Shown: positions 3,054 to 30,300 of the stretch, in pieces
Layout of the letters: each line of letters begins with the position of its first letter
Position numbering within the stretch: position 1 is the stretch's first letter
DNA from: Phascolarctobacterium sp.
GTDB taxonomy: Bacteria; Bacillota; Negativicutes; Acidaminococcales; Acidaminococcaceae
Reading direction: 5' to 3'
Assembly (NCBI GenBank): GCA_024405615.1
Contig: JAKSOK010000002.1
Location: 1 to 45,043 of the forward strand
Length of the DNA: 45,043 nt
Program-made: the position numbers and the translations under genes
The notes under the pieces: model-generated
Database searches by the model: none
The model's input: only the letters and a program-made list of their open reading frames with translations
Told to the model about the DNA's origin: nothing

Positions 3054-4457
3054 ATGACAAAAGCAAAGGATATGCAAAAAGACTTAACTTGGGAATTTCC
3101 TCATATAGGAAAGGTTGAAACTCAAGCAAAAGAAGCTGCCTATGAATATTGTGAAGGGTACAAAGAATTTTTAAATACTGCAAAAACTGAAAGAGAATTT
3201 ACAGCTAAAGCTGTAGCTGCTTTGCAGGCTGCAGGTTATGTTCCTATGGAAGATGGCAAATGCTATAAACCGGGTGATAAGATTTATTATGTTAATCGTG
3301 GTAAATCATTGGCGATGTCTACTATAGGCACTGCAACTTTGGATGAAGGTGTACGTTTAAATGCTGCTCATATTGATTCTCCACGTCTTGATTTAAAACC
3401 AAATCCGGTATATGAAAATCACGAAGTAGCATACTTTAAAACTCATTACTATGGTGGTATTCGCAAATACCAATGGGTAACTACTCCTCTAGCTATGCAT
3501 GGTGTTATAGTAAAGAAAAACGGCGAGATAGTAAATGTTTGTATTGGTGAAGCTGAAGGAGACCCGGTTTTCTGTGTAACAGATTTATTGCCGCATTTGG
3601 GAGCAAAGCAAAATGAAAGAAAACTTGGTGAAGGTATCAAAGGTGAGGAGCTGAATATCGTTATTGGTAGCTTGCCCTTTGTAGATGAGGAAGAAGAAAG
3701 CATTAAAGATGCTGTTAAATTAAATGCGTTATCTTTATTGAATCAAATGTATGGCATTACCGAGCAAGATTTTATGCGTGCAGAAATTGAATTTGTTCCT
3801 GCAACAAAAGCTGCAGATATTGGCTTGGATAGAAGTCTTATTGGTGCTTATGGTCAAGATGACAAAGTTTGTGCCTATACTGCATTAACTGCTGAAATTG
3901 ATACCAAAGCTCCTTATTATACGACGGTTACTATTCTTGCTGATAAAGAAGAAATTGGTTCTTATGGTAATACTGGTTTGAATTCCGATTTTGTTCTTCA
4001 TTATTTGGAAGATTTGGTTGCAGCCCAAGGTGGTAATATCCGTAAATTGTTAAGAAATACTACCGCACTTTCTTCTGATGTAAATGGTGCTTATGATCCT
4101 ACTTTTGCTTCTGTATATGAAGAACGTAACAGCTGCTTTATCAATAAAGGACCTGTTTTAACTAAATATACAGGTGCTCGCGGTAAATCTGGATCAAATG
4201 ATGCAAGTGCGGAAACCATGGCTAAAATCATCAACATCATGGATGAGGCGAAAGTTTATTGGCAAATTGGCGAATTGGGTGCTGTTGATGAAGGTGGCGG
4301 TGGTACTGTAGCTTTATATGTTGCAGCCATGGATATGGATGTCGTAGATTTAGGAGTGCCAATTTTATGCATGCATTCTCCTTTTGAATTAGCATCTAAG
4401 CTTGATGTATATTATACATATAAAGCTTTTGCCGCTTTTTTAAGTAGTGCAAAATAA
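3054..4457 (+). CDS. M18 family aminopeptidase
   Basis: Cytosolic dinuclear-zinc exopeptidase that removes N-terminal residues from peptides. The 467-residue protein has the M18 metal and catalytic motifs in order: A-A-H-I-D-S-P-R-L-D, then D-D-K-V-C-A-Y, then D-K-E-E-I-G-S-Y-G-N-T-G with the paired glutamates, then S-S-D-V-N-G-A-Y-D-P, and near the end M-H-S-P-F-E-L-A-S. ATG 3054 is chosen for the AAAGGA site at 3039-3044; TTG 3036 and ATG 3045 are in frame but too close to it. The gene follows a peptide importer, which fits use of peptides as nutrients, but has its own promoter. Confidence 0.93.
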   Translation: MTKAKDMQKDLTWEFPHIGKVETQAKEAAYEYCEGYKEFLNTAKTEREFTAKAVAALQAAGYVPMEDGKCYKPGDKIYYVNRGKSLAMSTIGTATLDEGVRLNAAHIDSPRLDLKPNPVYENHEVAYFKTHYYGGIRKYQWVTTPLAMHGVIVKKNGEIVNVCIGEAEGDPVFCVTDLLPHLGAKQNERKLGEGIKGEELNIVIGSLPFVDEEEESIKDAVKLNALSLLNQMYGITEQDFMRAEIEFVPATKAADIGLDRSLIGAYGQDDKVCAYTALTAEIDTKAPYYTTVTILADKEEIGSYGNTGLNSDFVLHYLEDLVAAQGGNIRKLLRNTTALSSDVNGAYDPTFASVYEERNSCFINKGPVLTKYTGARGKSGSNDASAETMAKIINIMDEAKVYWQIGELGAVDEGGGGTVALYVAAMDMDVVDLGVPILCMHSPFELASKLDVYYTYKAFAAFLSSAK

Positions 4458-12237: not shown

Positions 12238-13263
12238 ATGAAGATTGCTGTAGATGTAATGGGTACCGATTATGGCCCTAAAGAAATAGTAAAAGGTGCA
12301 GTTGATGCAGTAAAAGCATACGGCTGTGAAGTAGTTCTTGTTGGTGATGAGAATATCATTAAAGAACAGTTGATATTGAATAAAGCTGATAAGGATAGTA
12401 AAATTTCTATCTGCAATGCATCTCAAGTTATCGCTATGGATGAACATCCTGCGATTGCGGTTAGACGTAAAAAGGATGCTTCTATTGTTGTTGCTTCCAA
12501 TCTGTTAAGACAAAAAAAGTGTGATGCTCTTGTTTCTTCTGGTAGTACAGGTGCTGCTGTCACTTCTGCTTTGTTTTGTGTTGGTCGTTTACCTGGTGTT
12601 GATAAACCTTGTATTGCAACTACAATTCCCAGCATGAAGGGGGCAACTATTCTACTTGATAGTGGCGCAGTTGTCGATGCTAAGCCTGAGCATATGACTA
12701 TAAATGCTATAATGGGAAACTGTTATGCGGAAAAACTTTTCAACAAATCTCAACCTCGTGTAGGTCTTTTGAATATAGGCGAGGAAGAGACTAAGGGAAA
12801 CGCTCAAGTATTAGCTGCATACCCGCTTTTAAAAGAACTTAAACAGATTAATTTTATCGGTAATGTTGAAGGTAATGATATTCCTAAAGGTGATGTAGAT
12901 GTTGTTGTCTGCGATGCTTTTACGGGAAATGTTGCTTTGAAATTTGGTGAAGGTTTAGCTAATGCAATCTTTACGCTTATGAAAGAATCCATTATGCAAG
13001 GAGGAATTCTAGCGAAGATTGGAGCTTTGTTAATGAAGCCTGCTTTAGAAAAAATGAAAAAACATATGGATGTGCAGGAGTATGGCGGTGCTCTTTTATT
13101 AGGGATTAAGGCTCCGTTCATGATTTGCCATGGTAATTCCAAGGCTAAATCAATTACAAGTGCAATTCGTATGACTATAACTTTAGTTGAACAGAATGTA
13201 GTAGGCGCGATTAGTGATAAGATTGCTGAAGTTCAGCAAGGAAACGAGGAAATAGAAGGATGA
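12238..13263 (+). CDS. plsX: Phosphate acyltransferase PlsX
   Basis: Converts acyl-ACP and phosphate to acyl phosphate for phospholipid synthesis; a peripheral membrane enzyme. The 341-residue protein opens I-A-V-D-V-M-G-T-D-Y-G-P, a variant of the usual D-A-M-G-G-D-x-A-P. It also has S-S-G-S-T-G-A-A-V-T at about 100 and G-N-V-E-G-N-D-I-P-K-G near 205. It leads the fatty-acid operon, the normal position of plsX in both Firmicutes and E. coli. The SD is modest (AGAGGAACA, 12227-12235). Its end overlaps fabH by four bases. Confidence 0.95.
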   Translation: MKIAVDVMGTDYGPKEIVKGAVDAVKAYGCEVVLVGDENIIKEQLILNKADKDSKISICNASQVIAMDEHPAIAVRRKKDASIVVASNLLRQKKCDALVSSGSTGAAVTSALFCVGRLPGVDKPCIATTIPSMKGATILLDSGAVVDAKPEHMTINAIMGNCYAEKLFNKSQPRVGLLNIGEEETKGNAQVLAAYPLLKELKQINFIGNVEGNDIPKGDVDVVVCDAFTGNVALKFGEGLANAIFTLMKESIMQGGILAKIGALLMKPALEKMKKHMDVQEYGGALLLGIKAPFMICHGNSKAKSITSAIRMTITLVEQNVVGAISDKIAEVQQGNEEIEG

Positions 13264-14249
13264 CAAAATCTGTTGGTATTTTAGGTATAGGTGCATATGT
13301 TCCTGAGAAGGTTTTGACTAATCAGGATTTAGAAAAAATTGTTGATACCTCAGATGAATGGATTACAGAGCGTACAGGCATTAAAGAACGTCATATTGCT
13401 GCTCCTGAGCAAGCAACTTCTGATTTAGCTTATGAGGCTGCTAAAATGGCTTTGGCAGATGCTAATGTGGCTCCTGAAGAGATTGATTTGATTATATTAG
13501 GTACAGCAACTGCTGACCATATTTTCCCGTCCTGCGCTTGTGAAGTACAAGCTAAGTTGGGCTGTGTAAATGCAGGTGCTTTTGACTTGGCTGCTGGTTG
13601 CAGTGGTTTTGTTTACAATTTAATCGTTGCAAGCCAGATGATTAAAGCTGGTTCCTTTAAAAAGATTTTGATTATTGGTGCAGAAACTCTTTCCCGTATT
13701 ATTAATTGGGAAGACCGCAACACATGCGTACTGTTTGGCGACGGTGCAGGTGCAGCGGTTATTGGTGAGGTTGAAGATGGCTATGGTGTATTGGGCTTGG
13801 ATATGGGCGCTGATGGCCATGGTGGTCCTCATTTAATGCAACCTGCAGGTGGTAGCCGTAGACCGGCGACTCCTGAAACTGCAGCTGCCCATGAACATAC
13901 AATCCATATGAATGGTCCGGAAGTATTTAAGTTTGCTATTCAAATTATGGGTAAAACTGCTAAGCGTGCTTTAGAAAATGCAAATATGAAGCCGGAAGAG
14001 TTGGATATGCTTTTCCCACATCAAGCTAACATGCGTATTATTACCAGCGCGGCAAAGCGTTTGAAAATGCCTATGGAAAAGGTTTGGGTTAATGTAAATA
14101 AATATGCTAATACTTCTGCTGCTTCCATTCCTATTGCTTTGACAGAAGCTCAAAAAGCTGGAAAACTGGTTAAAGGCATGAATATTATTCTTGATGGTTT
14201 TGGCGCTGGTTTAACCTGGGGCGCTGTTGTTTTGAAATGGAGTAAATAA
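13260..14249 (+). CDS. fabH: Beta-ketoacyl-ACP synthase III
   Basis: Starts fatty-acid chains by condensing acetyl-CoA with malonyl-ACP. The 329-residue protein has the catalytic cysteine in D-L-A-A-G-C-S-G-F at about 113, the histidine in F-P-H-Q-A-N-M-R-I at about 254, and the asparagine in Y-A-N-T-S-A-A-S-I-P at about 284. It begins within the plsX stop (ATGA), with GAGGAAATAGAAGG just before it. Primer specificity (straight or branched) cannot be read from the sequence alone. Confidence 0.95.
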   Translation: MTKSVGILGIGAYVPEKVLTNQDLEKIVDTSDEWITERTGIKERHIAAPEQATSDLAYEAAKMALADANVAPEEIDLIILGTATADHIFPSCACEVQAKLGCVNAGAFDLAAGCSGFVYNLIVASQMIKAGSFKKILIIGAETLSRIINWEDRNTCVLFGDGAGAAVIGEVEDGYGVLGLDMGADGHGGPHLMQPAGGSRRPATPETAAAHEHTIHMNGPEVFKFAIQIMGKTAKRALENANMKPEELDMLFPHQANMRIITSAAKRLKMPMEKVWVNVNKYANTSAASIPIALTEAQKAGKLVKGMNIILDGFGAGLTWGAVVLKWSK

Positions 14250-15190
14250 TGAGTAAGATTGCATTTGTATTTCCGGGACAAGGTTCCCAAACTGTTGGTA
14301 TGTGCAAAGCTTTCTATGATGAATATGCTGTTGTACGTGATATTTTCGCTGAAGCCGATGAAGCTTTAGGTTTCTCTATTACTAAAATGTGTTTTGAAGG
14401 TCCTGAAAGCGACTTACGCTTGACTTTTAATACACAACCTGCTATTCTAACTGCTAGCGTTGCTTGTGCTGCTGTTTTAAAAGAAAAAGGCGCAAGCTGT
14501 GCTGTAGCTGCAGGTCATAGCTTAGGCGAATATTCTGCATTAGTTCATGCTGGTGCAATGAAATTTGCTGATGCTGTTCGTACTGTTCGTGCTCGTGGTA
14601 CCTTTATGCAAGAGGCTGTTCCTGTTGGTGAAGGTAGCATGGCAGCTGTTTTAGGTATGGATAGCGAAAAAATCGTGGAAATTTGCACAGCTGTTCAAAA
14701 TGAAGTTGGTGGTGCTGTTCAAGCGGTTAACTTTAATTGTCCTGGTCAAGTGGTTATTGCTGGTGCAGTTGATCCTGTTAATAAAGCAATTGAAGCATTG
14801 AAGGCTGCAGGTGCAAAACGTGCAGTTCTTCTGCCGGTAAGTGCTCCGTTCCATAGCACCTTGATGCAACCTGCTGCTGATCGTTTAGCAGAAGTTTTAG
14901 CTCCTATTGAGATTGTAGATGCTAATATTCCTGTAATTGCTAACGTTACTGCTGCTCCCGTTACCTGTGGTGCAACTATTAAAGAATTACTAGTTAAACA
15001 AGCTGCTAGCCCTGTACTTTGGGAAACCTCTGTACGCAATATGGTTGCTGATGGAGTAGATACTTTTGTTGAAGTTGGTCCTGGTAAAGTATTGACCGGC
15101 TTTACTAAAAAAATTGCTAAAGGAATTCCTGCACTGAATGTTGAGGATCCTGCTAGCCTGGAAAAAACTTTGGCTGCTTTAGGTCTGTAA
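14249..15190 (+). CDS. fabD: Malonyl-CoA:ACP S-malonyltransferase
   Basis: Loads malonyl groups from CoA onto ACP. The 313-residue protein has F-P-G-Q-G-S-Q near the start, the active-site G-H-S-L-G-E-Y-S-A-L at about 90-99, and the catalytic histidine in V-S-A-P-F-H-S-T-L at about 200. The ATG overlaps the fabH stop by one base (TAATG), implying coupling. Length and motifs are complete. Confidence 0.96.
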   Translation: MSKIAFVFPGQGSQTVGMCKAFYDEYAVVRDIFAEADEALGFSITKMCFEGPESDLRLTFNTQPAILTASVACAAVLKEKGASCAVAAGHSLGEYSALVHAGAMKFADAVRTVRARGTFMQEAVPVGEGSMAAVLGMDSEKIVEICTAVQNEVGGAVQAVNFNCPGQVVIAGAVDPVNKAIEALKAAGAKRAVLLPVSAPFHSTLMQPAADRLAEVLAPIEIVDANIPVIANVTAAPVTCGATIKELLVKQAASPVLWETSVRNMVADGVDTFVEVGPGKVLTGFTKKIAKGIPALNVEDPASLEKTLAALGL

Positions 15191-15229
15191 TTAGCTAGAG
15201 ATAGTTATATAAATTAGGAGAGAAGTACA

Positions 15230-15973
15230 ATGAGATTAGAAGGTAAAAAAGCTCTTGTAACCGGTGCTTCCCGTGGCATTGGTAAAGCTATCGCTTTGGC
15301 GTTAGCTGCTGAAGGTGCTGATGTAGTAGTAAACTATGCTGGTAGTAAAGCTGCTGCTGAAGCTGTAGCTGCTGAGATTGAGGCAATGGGTCGTAAGGCT
15401 CTTGTAGTGCAAGCTGATATTTCTTCCAACGAAGCTGCTACTGCTATGGTTGACCAAGCTGTTAAAGAATTTGGTCGCATTGATATTCTTGTAAACAATG
15501 CTGGTATTACTCGTGATGGCTTATTGATGCGCATGAAGGAAGAGGATTGGGATGCAGTTCTGACCACAAATCTGAAGGGCGTATTCAACTGCACTAAGGC
15601 TGCAGTAAAATATATGATGAAACAAAAAGCTGGTCATATTGTTAGCATTAGTTCTGTTGTTGGTTTGACTGGTAATGCTGGTCAAGCAAACTACGCTGCT
15701 GCTAAAGCGGGTGTTATTGGTTTTACCAAAGCTGTTGCCAAAGAAGTTGCTGCTCGTGGTATTACTGTTAATGCTGTTGCTCCTGGTTTCATTCAAACTG
15801 ATATGACTGCAGTATTAAACGAGAAACAAGTAGAGGCTATGTTGGCTACTATTCCTCTGAAAAAATTAGGTCAACCTGAAGATATTGCCAAGGCAGTTAT
15901 TTTCCTGGCAAGTGATGATGCTAATTATATCACCGGACAAACATTACATGTTGACGGTGGTATGGTAATGTAA
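15230..15973 (+). CDS. fabG: 3-oxoacyl-ACP reductase
   Basis: NADPH-dependent first reduction of each elongation round. The 247-residue short-chain dehydrogenase has the Rossmann motif [12 protein letters not shown] at about 11-22, N-N-A-G at about 87-90, the catalytic serine in S-I-S-S-V-V-G, and Y-A-A-A-K-A-G with the Tyr/Lys pair at about 152-156. It ends in the usual V-D-G-G-M-V-M. AGGAGAGAAG at 15215-15224 is a good ribosome-binding site. Confidence 0.97.
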
Positions 15974-16022
15974 TAAATAATCACATTAAACTAAAAATCC
16001 TTTGGAAGGAGGTGAATCTTAA

Positions 16023-16256
16023 ATGAACGAAACTTTCGCAAAAGTAAGAGACATCACTGTTGAACAACTGTCCGTTGATGCTGAAGAAGTAAAAATGGAA
16101 TCCGCATTCATCGATGACCTGGGCGCTGACTCTCTGGATATCGTTGAACTGATCATGGCTTTTGAAGAAGAATTCGGTGTTGAAATTCCCGATGAAAAAG
16201 CTGAAAAAATCCGCACTGTTGAAGACGCAGTAAAGATGCTGGACGAAGCAAAATAA
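16023..16256 (+). CDS. acpP: Acyl carrier protein
   Basis: Carries growing acyl chains on a phosphopantetheine arm. The 77-residue acidic protein has the modification site [10 protein letters not shown], with the serine at about residue 38. It has a very strong SD (GGAAGGAGGTG, 16004-16014). Its codons are richer in CTG, ATC and GAC than those of its neighbours, consistent with high expression. A 267-base gap with a large hairpin separates it from fabF. Confidence 0.97.
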
Positions 16257-16267
16257 TTTTTCATGAT

Positions 16268-16305
16268 ACTTGGGCATGGGAGTCTTAGGATTCCCATGCA
16301 TAAGT
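16268..16305 (+). other. Long stem-loop in the acpP-fabF spacer
   Basis: ACTTGGGCATGGGA (16268-16281) pairs with TCCCATGCATAAGT (16292-16305) at 13 of 14 positions (one G-U, one mismatch) around a ten-base loop. No T-run follows, so it is not a standard terminator. It may be a processing or mRNA-stability element separating the abundant acpP message from fabF. The rest of the gap (16306-16523) holds a small GTAGTT...AACTAC hairpin (about 16467-16483) and no gene. Confidence 0.55.
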
Positions 16306-16523
16306 GTTATGCATTGAGAATGCTTGTTGAATTTACCAGTGCTAGATAGGTAATCTGGTTGCTTGACATATATTTGTCTTACCAAAGCTACGGCTGCATG
16401 TGTTATCTGTTTGATAAATGGCGCCGGATTTTCAAGAGGCATGGCTCTCTAATTTGTAAATTCAGAGTAGTTTTGAGAACTACGATTTAGATAGATAAAG
16501 AGTTTATTTTTGAGGTGAATATT

Positions 16524-17774
16524 GTGACAAAACGTAGAGTTGTTATTACAGGCTTAGGTCCTGTAACTCCTGTTGGTATCGGTAAAGATGCATTTTGGAC
16601 TAATTTAGTAGCTGGTAAATCTGGCATTGGTCCTATTACTCAATTTGATGCTACTGACTTCACTGTAAGAATTGCTGGTGAAGTTAAAGATTTTGATTAT
16701 ACTGCTTTTATTGATAAAAAAGAAGGCAAACGTATGGACCGTGTTACTCAATTGGCTGTAGCTGCTGCTAAATTGGCTTTTGAGGATTCTGGCTTAGATA
16801 TGTCTAAGGAAGATGCTATGCGTTGTGGCGTTTGCGTTGGTTCTGGTATTGGTGGTATCAATACTTTCGTTGAACAAGCTGACAAGCTGATCAACAAAGG
16901 TCCTTCCAAGGTTAGTCCTTTCTTTATTCCTATGGATATTCCTAACATGTCTGCAGGTCAAATCGCTATTGCTTTAGGTTTAAAAGGTCCTAACACCTGT
17001 ATCGTAACTGCTTGTGCATCCGGTACTAACTGCATTGGCGATGCTCTGCGTACTATCCAATATGGTGATGCAGATGTTATGTTGGCTGGTGGTGCAGAAG
17101 CTGCTGTTAATCCTGCAGCTATCGCAGGCTTTGCTAATATGAAAGCTTTGAGCCATAACAATGACAATCCTGAACAAGCTTCCCGTCCGTTCGATAAAAC
17201 TCGTGATGGTTTCGTTTTAGGCGAAGGTTCTGGTGTATTGGTTTTGGAAGAATTAGAACATGCTAAAGCTCGTGGTGCACACATTTATGCTGAATTAGCA
17301 GGCTTTGCTATGAACTGTGATGCATATCATATTACTGCACCTGATCCGACTGGTGAAACTCCGGCAAAATGCTTAGCTGCATGCGTAAAAGATGCAGGCT
17401 TAGTTCCTGAAGATATTGATTATATCAATGCACATGGTACTTCTACTCACCGTAATGACCAAGGTGAAACTCTTGCAGTGAAAATGGTATTCGGCGAACA
17501 TGCTTATAAACTGGCTGTAAGCTCTAATAAATCCATGATTGGTCACTTATTAGGTGCTGCTGGCGGTGTAGAAGCTATTGCTACTGCCTTGACTATTGCT
17601 AACGGTGTAATTCCGCCCACCATTAACTATAATGAACCTGACCTTGAAGAAGGTTTGGACTTAGACTATGTTCCTAATGTAGCTCGCCAAGCTGAAGTTA
17701 AAGCTGCATTGAGTGATAACTTAGGTTTTGGTGGTCATAATGCTTGTATTTGCCTGACAAAATTTGCTGAATAA
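16524..17774 (+). CDS. fabF: Beta-ketoacyl-ACP synthase II
   Basis: Elongating condensing enzyme. The 416-residue protein has the catalytic cysteine in T-A-C-A-S-G-T-N at about 163. The two histidines lie in N-A-H-G-T-S-T-H at about 302 and in S-N-K-S-M-I-G-H-L-L-G-A-A-G-G at about 338. GTG 16524 is preferred: TGAGGTG at 16511-16517 sits seven bases upstream, whereas an in-frame GTG at 16515 lies inside that site. It ends just before rnc and is probably co-transcribed with it. Confidence 0.95.
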   Translation: MTKRRVVITGLGPVTPVGIGKDAFWTNLVAGKSGIGPITQFDATDFTVRIAGEVKDFDYTAFIDKKEGKRMDRVTQLAVAAAKLAFEDSGLDMSKEDAMRCGVCVGSGIGGINTFVEQADKLINKGPSKVSPFFIPMDIPNMSAGQIAIALGLKGPNTCIVTACASGTNCIGDALRTIQYGDADVMLAGGAEAAVNPAAIAGFANMKALSHNNDNPEQASRPFDKTRDGFVLGEGSGVLVLEELEHAKARGAHIYAELAGFAMNCDAYHITAPDPTGETPAKCLAACVKDAGLVPEDIDYINAHGTSTHRNDQGETLAVKMVFGEHAYKLAVSSNKSMIGHLLGAAGGVEAIATALTIANGVIPPTINYNEPDLEEGLDLDYVPNVARQAEVKAALSDNLGFGGHNACICLTKFAE

Positions 17775-17789
17775 AAAGCTGGTGGAGTA

Positions 17790-18500
17790 ATGCAAGAAGC
17801 GAGAAAAAAACAGCTTTTGAACTTTTGCTCCTTGGTTCATATTGAGTTGAATGATTTAAATCTGCTTAATATGGCTCTTACGCATAGCTCTTACGCGCAT
17901 GAGGCAAAAGAAAATCCGAAACCGGAGTGTAACGAACGTATTGAATTTCTTGGAGATTCAGTACTCAGCATAATTGTTAGTACCTATATGTACAATAATT
18001 ATCCTAGACTTCCGGAAGGTGATTTAACCAAAATTCGTGCAAATTTAGTGTGTACTCAAAGTTTATTTGAGTTAGCTCAGAAAATTCATCTAGGTGAATA
18101 TCTACTTTTAGGTAGGGGTGAAGCCTTAAATGGTGGACGCGAACGTGATAGTATTTTGGAAGCTGCTTTTGAAGCAGTGCTAGGTGCTATTTATCTTGAT
18201 AAAGGGATGGATTACGCTCGCAATTATCTGTTGAATATTATGCAGAGCAATATTGATTATGCCTGTGTTCATGGTGCTACTGGCGATTATAAAACTAAGC
18301 TGCAGGAATATCTGCAGAAGGATGGGGATGTTAATTTAACCTATCAACTAGTGAGTTGTAGCGGACCAGAACATAATAAAATCTTCAATATGGAGGTTTT
18401 ACTTGAGGGCAAAAGAATTGGTATTGGTACAGGTCATAAAAAGAAGGATGCTGAGCAAAAGGCTGCTAAGGATGCTTTAGAAAAATTGCATATTAATTAA
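17790..18500 (+). CDS. rnc: Ribonuclease III
   Basis: Double-strand-specific endoribonuclease for rRNA and mRNA processing. The 236-residue protein has the RNase III signature E-R-I-E-F-L-G-D-S-V-L at about 47-57 and the second acidic site D-S-I-L-E-A-A-F-E-A-V-L-G-A at about 120. A double-stranded RNA-binding domain begins at D-Y-K-T-K-L-Q-E-Y and ends K-K-D-A-E-Q-K-A-A-K-D-A-L. rnc after the acp/fab genes follows the Bacillus arrangement, but smc and ftsY, which come next there, are absent. Confidence 0.95.
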   Translation: MQEARKKQLLNFCSLVHIELNDLNLLNMALTHSSYAHEAKENPKPECNERIEFLGDSVLSIIVSTYMYNNYPRLPEGDLTKIRANLVCTQSLFELAQKIHLGEYLLLGRGEALNGGRERDSILEAAFEAVLGAIYLDKGMDYARNYLLNIMQSNIDYACVHGATGDYKTKLQEYLQKDGDVNLTYQLVSCSGPEHNKIFNMEVLLEGKRIGIGTGHKKKDAEQKAAKDALEKLHIN

Positions 18501-18515
18501 GGTAAATTAAGTTGA

Positions 18516-18545
18516 ACAGACGTAGGGATTTCTACGTCTGTTTTT
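18516..18545 (+). terminator. Rho-independent terminator after rnc
   Basis: ACAGACGTAG (18516-18525) pairs with CTACGTCTGT (18532-18541), six-base loop, then T residues. It ends the plsX-rnc operon. Confidence 0.92.
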
Positions 18546-18570
18546 ATCTATATAAATACGAGAACAAATA

Positions 18571-18602
18571 TAGTTAACTTAAAATTGAATTGTGGTTGAC
18601 AT
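18571..18602. promoter_or_regulatory. BirA-like operator at the bioY (copy 1) promoter
   Basis: Half-sites TAGTTAACT (18571-18579) and GGTTGACAT (18594-18602) are separated by exactly 14 bases. The biotin repressor box of Firmicutes is, as I know it, TTGTTAACC-N14 to N16-GGTTAACAA. The second half-site contains the -35, so a bound repressor would block RNA polymerase. The same geometry recurs at 27115-27146 and 29666-29697. Confidence 0.75.
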
Positions 18603-18624
18603 AAAAGAAGCGCAGGAGTATAAT
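18596..18624 (+). promoter_or_regulatory. Promoter of bioY copy 1
   Basis: TTGACA (18596-18601), 17-base spacer, TATAAT (18619-18624). The -35 lies inside a BirA-like half-site. Confidence 0.85.
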
Positions 18625-18674
18625 ATCAAACAAGGTGATGTTTCATCAAATTTTTATATAAGAGGTTTATTTAT

Positions 18675-19202
18675 ATGTCTACAAGAGAACTAACAAAATT
18701 AGGCTTAATGATAGCCTTACAGTGTGTATCCTGCTATATTATTATTCCCTTGCCATTTTCTATGTCTCCAATCGCATTAGTTACATTGATAGTAAATCTT
18801 AATGGTATGGTGCTGAATGTTAAACAATCATTGATGAGTATGACGGCGTACTTATTATTAGGCTTAGCAGGATTACCAATATTTACTGGTGGCGCTGCAG
18901 GACCTGGCAAATTGTTTGGACCGACTGGTGGTTATCTGTTTGGTTGGTTAGTTGCAGCAGCGATAATTGCTTATTTGCGTCCAGAAAAATATGACTTTAA
19001 ACGTTATGCTTTTCTAGGCTGTGTAATAAGTATTCCCGTGATTTATTTATTTGGCGTAGTTCAATTACAGATGATTACCCACATGGGATGGAGTAAGGCC
19101 ATTATGACTGGTGCAATTCCTTTCATACCATTGGATATTGTTAAAGCAGTAGCTGCGGCTTACATTGCTGGCCCAGTTTTGAAAATTTTTAACAACAGAT
19201 AA
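18675..19202 (+). CDS. bioY: Biotin transporter BioY (copy 1)
   Basis: Substrate-binding membrane subunit (S component) of an ECF-type biotin importer. The 175-residue protein has about six membrane helices, T-K-L-G-L-M-I-A-L near the start, and the BioY signature G-P-T-G-G-Y-L-F-G at about 85-93. It also carries V-V-Q-L-Q-M-I-T-H-M-G-W and P-F-I-P-L-D-I-V-K-A near the end. It is closely similar to the BioY at 29764. No ECF ATPase or EcfT gene is nearby, so it either uses shared EcfAAT modules elsewhere or works alone. SD AAGAGG at 18660-18665. The gene stands alone between terminators. Confidence 0.95.
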   Translation: MSTRELTKLGLMIALQCVSCYIIIPLPFSMSPIALVTLIVNLNGMVLNVKQSLMSMTAYLLLGLAGLPIFTGGAAGPGKLFGPTGGYLFGWLVAAAIIAYLRPEKYDFKRYAFLGCVISIPVIYLFGVVQLQMITHMGWSKAIMTGAIPFIPLDIVKAVAAAYIAGPVLKIFNNR

Positions 19203-27114: not shown

Positions 27115-27146
27115 TTGTTAACGATAAGCATAAAGTCGGTTGACGA
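27115..27146. promoter_or_regulatory. BirA-like operator at the thiolase-ligase promoter
   Basis: TTGTTAACG (27115-27123) and GGTTGACGA (27138-27146) are separated by 14 bases. The first half-site matches the biotin-repressor consensus at eight of nine positions. The second contains the -35, as in the other two sites. It places the thiolase and ligase genes in the same regulon as both bioY genes. Confidence 0.78.
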
Positions 27147-27168
27147 AGGCTGCAAAGGTGTTTATAAT
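27140..27168 (+). promoter_or_regulatory. Promoter of the thiolase-ligase operon
   Basis: TTGACG (27140-27145), 17-base spacer, TATAAT (27163-27168), 34 bases before the start codon. Confidence 0.82.
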
Positions 27169-27202
27169 ATGCTTATAAGAATTTAATTTGGAGACAATGA
27201 TT

Positions 27203-28336
27203 ATGGATGCATATATATTAGGTGGTTTACGTAGCTATGTTGGCTTAAGTAAAGGTATGTACTGTCATGTGCCTGCTGAAAAGCTAGGCGCTGCTGTTTT
27301 ACGTCAGGTAATGGATAAATATAACATTATAGAACCAGATTATATTATTGCTGGTAATGCAGTTGGTGCTGGTGGCAATATCGCTAGATTAATGGCTTTA
27401 GAGGCTGGTGTTAAACAAACGGTTCCTGCTTTTAGCGTAGATGTGCAATGTGGTAGTGGTTTAGAAAGTATTGCTATTGCTGCAGCCAAAATAACCTGTG
27501 GTGAGGCAGATGTAGTTATAGCTGGTGGTTTTGAAAGTAGTTCCTGTCAGCCTAGAAGAGGCTTAAGTAAAAACCATCCTGACTATGTTGATGATAGTTG
27601 GTATAGTGTAGCAAAATTTATACCTGGAGTGCACAGAGAGACAGTCATGCTTGAAGGTGCAGAGCAGGCTATTATTGAGGAAAAAGTAAGTAAAGAGGAA
27701 CTGGACTATTGGGTTCTACGTAGCCATAAGCTTGCTACGGAAGCTAGGGATAAAGGTCTCCTGCAGAATATCATCGCTCCTGTTTTTGATGCAAAGCAGG
27801 ATGAGGGAATTAGACCTCGCATGAGTCAAAGGTTAATAGACAGGTTGCCTAAACTGTTACCTGATGGAAAACTGTTGAATGCAGCTAATGCTTGTCTCAT
27901 TAATGATGGAGCTGCATTTATAGTTTTGTGTTCTAAAAAATACTTAGAAGAACATGGCCTTAAAGCACAGGCTAGAGTTTTGGGAAGTACAGCTTGTGGC
28001 GGAGACCCCATGGTTAGCCCTAGAACGGCGGTAACCGTTTTAGAAAAGCTGTTAAATAAACATCATCTTCAAGAAAAGGATATTGATGGATTTGAACTAA
28101 ATGAAGCTTTTGCAGTAATTGACGTTATTTTTGCACGTACATTCCCAAATAGTTTAGATAAGTATAATGTTTTTGGCGGTGCTTTAGCCTATGGTCATCC
28201 CTATGGTGCATCTGGAGCAATTATAACGTTACATTTACTGGAAAGCTTAAGGCAGCGTGGTGGCAGATTTGGTTGTACTAGTGTGGCTGCTGCAGGCGGC
28301 GTTGGAACAGCCTTATTATTAGAGTATTTGGAGTAG
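27203..28336 (+). CDS. yhfS: Thiolase family protein (YhfS-like) lacking the second catalytic cysteine
   Basis: Thiolases condense or cleave acyl-CoA and acetyl-CoA units. The 377-residue protein keeps the nucleophilic cysteine in V-Q-C-G-S-G (Cys83), the N-E-A-F-A motif and the histidine in G-H-P-Y-G-A-S-G at about 332. The C-terminal motif that normally carries the acid/base cysteine (C-x-G-G-G-x-G) reads V-A-A-A-G-G-V-G, with Ala362 in its place. Ordinary acetoacetyl-CoA thiolase chemistry is therefore doubtful. Together with the next gene and bioY it matches B. subtilis yhfS-yhfT-yhfU (order reversed there), a BirA-controlled operon of unclear function. GGAG at 27190-27193 favours ATG 27203 over 27197. 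The symbol is by analogy. Confidence 0.8.
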   Translation: MDAYILGGLRSYVGLSKGMYCHVPAEKLGAAVLRQVMDKYNIIEPDYIIAGNAVGAGGNIARLMALEAGVKQTVPAFSVDVQCGSGLESIAIAAAKITCGEADVVIAGGFESSSCQPRRGLSKNHPDYVDDSWYSVAKFIPGVHRETVMLEGAEQAIIEEKVSKEELDYWVLRSHKLATEARDKGLLQNIIAPVFDAKQDEGIRPRMSQRLIDRLPKLLPDGKLLNAANACLINDGAAFIVLCSKKYLEEHGLKAQARVLGSTACGGDPMVSPRTAVTVLEKLLNKHHLQEKDIDGFELNEAFAVIDVIFARTFPNSLDKYNVFGGALAYGHPYGASGAIITLHLLESLRQRGGRFGCTSVAAAGGVGTALLLEYLE

Positions 28337-28339
28337 ATT

Positions 28340-29644
28340 ATGGACTATTTACATATGATAAAATCCCATAAACCAGAAAAAATAGCTTTGGTGGATGATG
28401 GAGTAGAATATACCTATGGGGATTTAATTCATTTGGCAGAAGTAAAAAGAGCGCAGCTAACTTATGAAGAAAAAGTGTATTTTATTCATGAAGAAAAGAT
28501 TGCGGATCAGTTGATAAATTTCTTAGCTTATAGCGGTACTGCAACTGTGCCTGTAATTGCTACTGCAGCTAGTAAGGGCCAGAGCTTTATAGTAGAGCAT
28601 ATTCCTGAAGCTGCTTGCATGGGCGTAATGACAAGTGGTAGTACTGGCAAAAGTAAGCTTTTATGGCGTAGCTATCGTAGTTGGGTGGATTTTTTTCCTG
28701 AACAGAATCGCGTTTTTGGCGTTGATGAAAATACAGTAATATTTTGTCAAGGAAGCTTAGCCTTTACTGGCAATATGAATATTTACATGAGTATTCTTTT
28801 TGCTGGAGCTACATTAATTGTTACAGAAAAATTTAGACCTAAGCAATGGCTGAAGCTTATGGAACTATACAAGGTAAATACTCTTTATCTTATTCCTTCA
28901 AAACTATTGTTACTTCCAAGATTTATTACAGAACCCAATAATAATGTTCGCTACATTATAGCAGGTTCTCAGACTATGGGTAGAGCAGAAGCCGATAAAC
29001 TTTTGCAAGTATTCCCAAATGTTGAAATAACACTTTATTATGGCGCTAGTGAAATGAATTACATAACCTATATCAAGGATAAGGATATGACAGACGATAG
29101 AACAGATATAGGTTTACCCTTTAATGGAGTTCAAGTAACAGTTAAGGATGAAGAAATTTTCATTGACAATAATTTTCACGTTGAAGAAATAGAAATGCCT
29201 TTTACGTTGAAGGATAGAGGTTATTTAGATACAAATGGAAGGTTGCATTTCTTAGGTCGCACTGATGATATCATTGGCGTGAATGGACTTAAAATCTCTA
29301 GTCAGAAAATAGAGGCAGTCTTAAAAGAACTTCCTCATGTCATGGAAGCCTGCGTGTTAAGCATTCATTCTGGGGATGCTGATGTTTTAACAGCTTATTT
29401 AGGAACTGATGGGTTAGATGAAGATGAGGGTGTAGCACTCAATGCAGAAAAAGCAGAAGGTGTGTTGGCTCCTACTGACATAGGAAATGCTAAGCTTTTC
29501 TCTAAAAGTGAATTAGTGCAGCTTTTGAAAACAAGCCATTTAGAGGACCATGAGATACCTAAACAGTATTATTTTATGAATGTTTTACCCAAAAATGAAA
29601 GTGGAAAAATAGATAAACGTAAATTGCAAAATTATCAAGGCTAA
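28340..29644 (+). CDS. yhfT: AMP-forming acyl-CoA ligase (YhfT-like)
   Basis: Activates a carboxylic acid through an acyl-adenylate to a thioester. The 434-residue protein is short for the family (often 480-560). Motifs are in order: T-S-G-S-T-G-K-S-K (ATP loop) at about 95, Y-G-A-S-E-M-N at about 234, G-R-T-D-D-I-I-G-V-N-G-L-K-I at about 308, and the catalytic lysine in N-E-S-G-K-I-D-K-R near the end. It starts three bases after the thiolase stop with GGAG in the overlap zone, so it is in the same operon. A dicarboxylic acid or fatty acid for biotin-precursor synthesis is an attractive but unproven substrate. Confidence 0.85.
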   Translation: MDYLHMIKSHKPEKIALVDDGVEYTYGDLIHLAEVKRAQLTYEEKVYFIHEEKIADQLINFLAYSGTATVPVIATAASKGQSFIVEHIPEAACMGVMTSGSTGKSKLLWRSYRSWVDFFPEQNRVFGVDENTVIFCQGSLAFTGNMNIYMSILFAGATLIVTEKFRPKQWLKLMELYKVNTLYLIPSKLLLLPRFITEPNNNVRYIIAGSQTMGRAEADKLLQVFPNVEITLYYGASEMNYITYIKDKDMTDDRTDIGLPFNGVQVTVKDEEIFIDNNFHVEEIEMPFTLKDRGYLDTNGRLHFLGRTDDIIGVNGLKISSQKIEAVLKELPHVMEACVLSIHSGDADVLTAYLGTDGLDEDEGVALNAEKAEGVLAPTDIGNAKLFSKSELVQLLKTSHLEDHEIPKQYYFMNVLPKNESGKIDKRKLQNYQG

Positions 29645-29648
29645 AAAA

Positions 29649-29681
29649 CAGGTTAACCTAAATTCAGGTTAACCTGTTTTT
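29649..29681 (+). terminator. Terminator after the ligase gene whose right arm is part of a BirA-like box
   Basis: ACAGGTTAACCT (29649-29660) pairs with AGGTTAACCTGT (29666-29677), five-base spacer, then TTTT. Both arms contain GGTTAACC, and the right arm doubles as the left half-site of the bioY copy 2 operator. Confidence 0.88.
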
Positions 29682-29697
29682 AAATTATGGTTGACAG
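29666..29697. promoter_or_regulatory. BirA-like operator at the bioY (copy 2) promoter
   Basis: AGGTTAACC (29666-29674) and GGTTGACAG (29689-29697) are separated by 14 bases, and the second half-site holds the -35. Same geometry as the boxes at 18571 and 27115. Confidence 0.75.
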
Positions 29698-29719
29698 TGA
29701 AAGAAAGATAGGGTATAAT
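29691..29719 (+). promoter_or_regulatory. Promoter of bioY copy 2
   Basis: TTGACA (29691-29696), 17-base spacer, TATAAT (29714-29719). Confidence 0.87.
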
Positions 29720-29732
29720 TACCACATAAACA

Positions 29733-29764
29733 ATGTTAACCATAACAAGAAAGTAGGATAACGA
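29733..29764. promoter_or_regulatory. Second BirA-like box across the bioY copy 2 ribosome-binding site
   Basis: ATGTTAACC (29733-29741) and GGATAACGA (29756-29764) are again 14 bases apart. They match the half-site consensus at eight and seven of nine positions. The right half-site is the Shine-Dalgarno region and touches the start codon. Confidence 0.55.
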
Positions 29765-30300
29765 TGCAAAATAACAAGACTCGCGAAATGACAAAAATGG
29801 CTTTGATGGTAGCTCTAAACTGTATTTCAGCCTATATTATTATTCCACTGCCTTTTTCTTTATCTCCTATAGCTTTACAGACCTTAGTTGTTAATTTAAC
29901 TGGTTATGTACTGAATGTGAAGCAAGCCGCTATGACCATGGCTGCTTATCTGTTAGTAGGTTTGGCAGGTGTACCTGTGTTTACAGGCGGATCTTCTGGT
30001 CCTGGTAAATTGTTTGGACCTACAGGTGGATATTTATTTGGTTTCGCTTTATGGGCTATTTTATTAGCTTATTTACGTAGTAAAGAATATAATTTTGTTA
30101 GATATGCACTTTTAGGTTGTATTATAGGTGTTCCCTTTATCTATGTATTCGGTGTTGTTCAATTACAATTGGTAACACATATGGGATGGGGAAAAGCTGT
30201 TATGACTGGCGCTCTACCGTTTATACCTCTAGATATTGTTAAATGTTGTGCTGCTGCTTATGTTGCCGGTCCTATTAATAGAATATTTGGTGAAGCTTAA
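29764..30300 (+). CDS. bioY: Biotin transporter BioY (copy 2)
   Basis: Second biotin-binding ECF S component, 178 residues, plainly paralogous to the copy at 18675 along its whole length. Shared blocks include I-I-I-P-L-P-F-S, L-N-V-K-Q, G-P-G-K-L-F-G-P-T-G-G-Y-L-F-G, T-H-M-G-W and P-F-I-P-L-D-I-V-K. It has about six membrane helices. AGGATAACG before ATG serves as the SD. It has its own promoter downstream of the ligase terminator. Keeping two BioY genes under near-identical operators suggests dosage, or slightly different specificity (for example biotin against a precursor), which is inference. Confidence 0.95.
   Translation: MQNNKTREMTKMALMVALNCISAYIIIPLPFSLSPIALQTLVVNLTGYVLNVKQAAMTMAAYLLVGLAGVPVFTGGSSGPGKLFGPTGGYLFGFALWAILLAYLRSKEYNFVRYALLGCIIGVPFIYVFGVVQLQLVTHMGWGKAVMTGALPFIPLDIVKCCAAAYVAGPINRIFGEA

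Follow-up and report, generated by a model that had tools for sequence, protein, structure and literature searches.

The window analysed here, the whole stretch of 45,043 nucleotides from Phascolarctobacterium sp. (contig JAKSOK010000002.1), encodes on its forward strand a YhfS-like thiolase-fold enzyme (27203-28336) and, after a gap of 3 bases, a YhfT-like AMP-forming acyl ligase (28340-29644) that carries the P-loop TSGSTGK and the motifs YGASE and PKNESGKIDK. The open reading frame after the ligase is bioY2 (29764-30300, forward strand), which encodes a biotin-specific S component of an ECF transporter; a paralogue, bioY1, occupies 18675-19202 on the same strand, directly 3' of a plsX-fabH-fabD-fabG-fabF-rnc fatty-acid synthesis run (12238-19202 with bioY1). 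The best specific NCBIfam models for the thiolase and the ligase are the YhfS-type PRK06690 and the YhfT-type PRK07638, both with scores below the curated cut-offs (235 bits against the 498 needed, and 142 against the 518 needed, respectively), and none of the solved structures returned by a PDB search is similar enough to the ligase to tell its substrate.

How is the operon controlled? An earlier note on this DNA had placed a BirA-type box over the -35 element of the thiolase-ligase operon, with bioY next, and this arrangement is confirmed. The operator reads TTGTTAACG-N14-GGTTGACGA at 27115-27146, exactly as first described, and its right half contains the -35 element of a predicted sigma-70-type promoter (TTGACG-17-TATAAT, 27140-27168, forward strand, 11/12 matches). 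It has 3 mismatches to the BirA consensus TTGTTAACC-N14-GGTTAACAA, the half-sites of which were tested by enrichment as described below. In addition, bioY2 has a boxed promoter of its own: TTGACA-17-TATAAT at 29691-29719 on the forward strand (12/12), with a weaker BirA-type box over the -35 element (29666-29697, 4 mismatches) and a BirA-type operator at 29733-29764 (3 mismatches). Between the two units lies a 16-bp hairpin, probably the terminator of the thiolase-ligase unit (29644-29681, forward strand, -21.6 kcal/mol, z -6.3). From this order of hairpin, 12/12 promoter and boxes, bioY2 is predicted to be a transcription unit apart from thiolase and ligase. The terminator and the bioY2 operator overlap, and the terminator stem contains AGGTTAACCT, at once a perfect palindrome and a BirA half-site. 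Paired BirA-type boxes some 61-67 bp apart also occur upstream of bioY at three other loci (L064, L065 and L049), as at 29666/29733 in the window. Likewise, bioY1 has a 12/12 promoter with a BirA-type box over its -35 element (18571-18602, 4 mismatches) and probably belongs to the same regulon.

At the scan threshold of three mismatches or fewer, the window contains two boxes, at 27115 and 29733, against 0.01 expected, and none of 100 shuffles contained two. These are also the sole N14-spaced sites in the 1.85 Mb draft genome, where reversing the pattern as a control produced about as many hits; thus, the evidence from the boxes is their placement before thiolase and bioY, and not their number. 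Conservation of that placement was examined in relatives. Some thiolase match was found in 72 of 100 relatives and an orthologue in about 45 (the thiolase of G059, at 40% identity, is excluded from the counts), and the relatives' loci that we examined usually have a box upstream of genes in the order bioY-thiolase-ligase. Scanning 84,980 species yielded 80 loci, from Pelosinus, Clostridium, Halanaerobium, Paenibacillus and relatives of Bacillus, among others, and plasmid records added Azospirillum and Sinorhizobium, in which thiolase, BioY and ECF genes lie together. Of 112 Bacillota-type loci, 51 have a box with three or fewer mismatches close to the first gene's start; the box density in the remainder of these loci predicts 0.23, and the excess is 229-fold. 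At four or fewer mismatches the count is 79 against 1.2 expected, and at two or fewer it is 30, and no such box occurs elsewhere (1.53 Mb). No match to a BioR-type palindrome was present before the alphaproteobacterial BioY modules (L114-L116).

The genome of the window also supplies a candidate regulator. It encodes two biotin protein ligases, one with an N-terminal HTH_11 domain and the other without it; the former, a BirA of 332 aa on contig G000:C206, combines HTH_11 (64 bits) with BPL and BPL_C domains. The features of a group II BirA regulon are therefore found together, namely an operator over the promoter, an HTH-bearing biotin protein ligase encoded by the genome, and a box before orthologues. 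The earlier note had named the absence of an HTH-bearing BirA, or of boxes before orthologous pairs, as evidence against its proposal; both are present, the regulon search that it suggested recovered the box in relatives, and its view that gene content and operator are conserved in other classes holds for the relatives' loci, where thiolase and ligase often lie next to bioY under BirA boxes as they do in the window. Its parallel with yhfS/yhfT of B. subtilis is likewise strengthened by work on the S. aureus homologues, in which SaBirA binds and represses the yhfS-yhfT promoter, as judged by reporter and gel-shift assays (PMC6391492). We predict with high confidence that BirA controls the window operon.

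The two genes are not the whole pathway, and relatives show further partner enzymes. In a set of 119 loci, which is rich in Paenibacillus and in which operons were called mechanically, so that counts should not be read as independent events, the thiolase is accompanied by the ligase in 117, BioY in 99, a FabG-like SDR in 31, a FabK-like protein in 14, a hot-dog dehydratase in about 75 and ECF energising genes in about 21; counted by type, MaoC-type proteins occur in 30, HadB-type in 30 and FabZ-like in 16. For example, the operon of Paenibacillus and many Bacillaceae runs bioY, ligase, thiolase, HadA-like, HadB/MaoC-like and FabG-like SDR genes, often followed in Paenibacillus by ecfA-ecfA'-ecfT and a FabK-like enoyl reductase. 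The enzymes are identified as HadA/HadB-like, MaoC and 3-oxoacyl-ACP-reductase-like SDR proteins, and FabK is the best NCBIfam match of the enoyl reductase, though below the curated cut-off. Three of the module loci encode thioesterases of the YbgC/FadM type. In rhizobial loci such a thioesterase and an MDR-family oxidoreductase lie nearby, and in one congener of the window organism the ligase gene is followed by genes for YbgC-type thioesterases.

In many relatives, the interval between the box and bioY contains a gene whose product measures about 180-220 aa and carries an invariant D-x-N-x-x-H motif; Pelosinus-type loci have in its place a FabZ-like protein 3' of the ligase. The AF2 model of this Negativicutes/Clostridia dehydratase is a double hot-dog (pLDDT 93.5, pTM 0.90) whose closest PDB matches are itaconyl-CoA hydratase, HtdX and the hydratase 2 domain of MFE-2. 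With its invariant Asp/His active-site pair, the module dehydratase is, as modelled, of the R-specific enoyl-CoA hydratase type. The window genome encodes its dehydratase away from the operon, on contig C97 (1277-1816, E 9e-56). Some 1.4 kb past that gene and near the contig end, the same contig (L221) carries two N13-spaced BirA-type boxes within 3262-3370, with 3 and 4 mismatches, ahead of a further putative gene. Because hot-dog enzymes of different types, and two candidate enoyl reductases unrelated to each other, take the same positions in the set, the partner enzymes support a chemistry of C2 elongation. We propose that thiolase and ligase form the centre of a larger C2-elongation set that would act on a thioester through R-hydroxy intermediates.

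The active site of the thiolase sets it apart from its paralogues. The fold is that of an ordinary thiolase (TM 0.93 to the Zoogloea thiolase), and among the linked thiolases Cys89 is kept in 118/118 rows, Asn316 in 118/118 and His348 in 117/118; in the window enzyme these are Cys83, Asn300 and His332. However, the cysteine of the CxG motif, Cys378, occurs in none of 117 readable linked thiolases, which carry Gly (85 sequences), Ala (31, the window enzyme among them) or Ser (1) at this position; it is present in 11/11 correctly read paralogues (three misframed sequences were dropped from 14 'canonical' controls). Conversely, Cys231, which the window enzyme shares, is invariant in the 118 rows, and 13 of the 14 control rows have Ser at that position. 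Asp80 and Gln82 are also invariant and His175 and Tyr334 nearly so, and a tree splits the linked thiolases from the paralogues with a support of 0.90, obtained with a small outgroup. Loss of Cys378 would be unexpected in a normal non-decarboxylative condensation, and two readings suggest themselves from the alignment: the base may have been relocated to Cys231, or the condensation may be decarboxylative. A thiolase family without the second catalytic cysteine poses a separate question for enzymology.

What does the module make? The earlier note had suggested that the pair prepares or salvages a pimelate-like precursor, or handles a biotin-related acid; the first part falls on the distribution of the genes and the second survives as the favoured one. 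In the pimelate proposal, the ligase would activate glutarate or another short diacid and the thiolase would extend it to pimeloyl-CoA, as a counterpart of BioZ. One cycle would suffice chemically, 3-oxoadipyl-CoA thiolases rank next after YhfS among the NCBIfam models for the Paenibacillus enzyme, two relatives have bioF without bioW, and 74 gut species that encode BioF, BioA, BioD and BioB lack any known source of the pimeloyl unit (PMC6593275). Against it speaks a tabulation of bioW, bioC, bioF, bioD and bioB in the 100 relatives and, for bioB and bioF, in about 49 named genomes. In the relatives with a completeness of at least 90%, the thiolase occurs independently of bioF and of bioW (Fisher P = 1 each), and 16 relatives over 90% complete, including the single-contig G029 and G048, have the thiolase and lack both bioF and bioW. 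Furthermore, 13 of the 49 genomes of named loci with the module lack bioB, mostly Paenibacillus or Cohnella; in 8 of these 13, all Bacillota and among them the Paenibacillus that have the most complete operons, bioF has no match either. Finally, none of the 119 loci has bioB, bioD, bioF or bioW beside the module, while birA adjoins it in five Paenibacillus loci. Pimelate supply is thus rejected as the general role, and we consider it very unlikely as an explanation of the module. Two further features of the biotin genes were noted in passing: an apparent BioW-BioF fusion in one frame of about 633-658 aa (G001, G002, G004, G016, G028 and others), and tandem adjacent bioB paralogues in several Sporomusaceae-type genomes (L100, L097, Pelosinus and relatives).

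Two other readings compete with the one that we favour, salvage of shortened biotin. The main rival is an acyl elongation that spares biotin: when biotin is short, acetyl-CoA carboxylase and malonyl-CoA would fail, and the module would take up free fatty acids and lengthen them from acetyl-CoA, so that the biotin-dependent step is bypassed. The full enzyme set would resemble a FAS-like cycle on thioesters, and both BirA control and presence in auxotrophs fit the logic of sparing biotin. However, Cys378, the base for acetyl-CoA condensation in known thiolases, is absent in all 117 sequences, and the reduced relatives without bioB, which should be the neediest, lack the thiolase too. Neither point is decisive, but a lipid role also leaves the clustering with BioY and the ECF module unexplained beyond shared regulation, and we regard this rival as unlikely. 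Alternatively, the pair could act on a different vitamer of biotin or a related acid, such as one that resembles dethiobiotin but has an altered chain, and salvage or remodel it, or it could work in some other direction. BioY may carry vitamers, and in the Negativicutes the thiolase is weakly associated with bioB (35/36 versus 28/37, P = 0.014, without phylogenetic correction), a link that is not called for if biotin is merely salvaged and that counts against the reading we favour. Yet the genomes that have the module and no bioB cannot depend on bioB, and this alternative too seems doubtful.

We propose, as the best explanation and with a probability of roughly 0.4, that the module rebuilds bisnorbiotin to biotin under the control of BirA and turns on when biotin runs short. 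A catabolic role is unlikely because the operon would be repressed by biotin, and elongation rather than breakdown is the probable direction. The link to uptake, together with presence in genomes unable to make biotin, favours salvage, and we tentatively take the substrate to be a biotin with a shortened side chain, bisnorbiotin or possibly tetranorbiotin. Bisnorbiotin is the most economical choice, since one elongation cycle restores biotin; it is also a main human biotin metabolite, at 13-23% of urinary biotin plus metabolites (PMC9106636). In this scheme, scarcity of biotin would derepress the operon as part of the BirA regulon, BioY would import biotin shortened by beta-oxidation, and the ligase would convert the imported acid to its CoA thioester. 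The thiolase-fold enzyme would then add two carbons, from acetyl-CoA or malonyl-CoA, and the new unit would be saturated by a FabG-like reductase, a MaoC/HadAB/FabZ-like dehydratase and an enoyl reductase, which may be FabK-like or, in the alphaproteobacteria, the MDR-family oxidoreductase. A thioesterase would free the finished acid, which is biotin after a single cycle on bisnorbiotin. In the window organism, the dehydratase would come from contig C97 and the reductases from other loci. The fuller combination, a vitamin salvage that couples import by BioY to a biotin-repressed C2 cycle with a thiolase using Cys231 or decarboxylation, is somewhat less probable. Against salvage, many modules, that of the window included, have no reductases and dehydratase in the operon, and the link to BioY could mean co-regulation only. 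In the part of the literature that we searched, we found no report of bacterial growth on bisnorbiotin and nothing relevant on a bioY-thiolase operon or on a link with reverse beta-oxidation.

If the module does repair biotin, many predicted auxotrophs could live on biotin breakdown products, and the exchange of vitamins predicted for gut and soil would change. The control of yhfS-yhfT by BirA was already known, and we found no assignment of their role in the papers that we read; the comparison presented here supplies the partner enzymes. The larger module, the change in the thiolase active site and the distribution among auxotrophs appear to be new, as the part of the literature that we searched contained no account of a module with the modified thiolase or of its presence in auxotrophs.

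How does the module compare with known systems? The window pair shares with yhfU-yhfT-yhfS of B. subtilis and yhfS-yhfT of S. aureus the types of ligase and thiolase, the BirA operator and the BioY partner; unlike those systems, it appears to be transcribed separately from the bioY that follows it. A dehydratase joins the pair in most relatives, and reductases and ECF genes do so in many Bacilli. The thiolase resembles the biosynthetic and degradative thiolases (PF00108/PF02803) in its fold, nucleophilic cysteine and NEAF and GHP motifs, but it has lost the CxG cysteine and displays Cys231, Asp80, Gln82, His175 and Tyr334 instead. In the BioZ pathway, a KAS III-like enzyme condenses glutaryl-CoA with malonyl-ACP to give 3-ketopimeloyl-ACP, and this condensing enzyme is not known to have a second Cys base. 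Like BioZ, the module would perform a biotin-linked acyl elongation with a condensing enzyme of the thiolase superfamily; unlike BioZ, it is not linked to bioF, and its thiolase is not a relative of FabH. Finally, in thiamin salvage by TenA, a degraded vitamin is taken up and repaired. The vitamin, the chemistry and the genes all differ, and the resemblance that we propose is one of logic only, in that an uptake system would be transcribed with the enzymes that repair what it imports.
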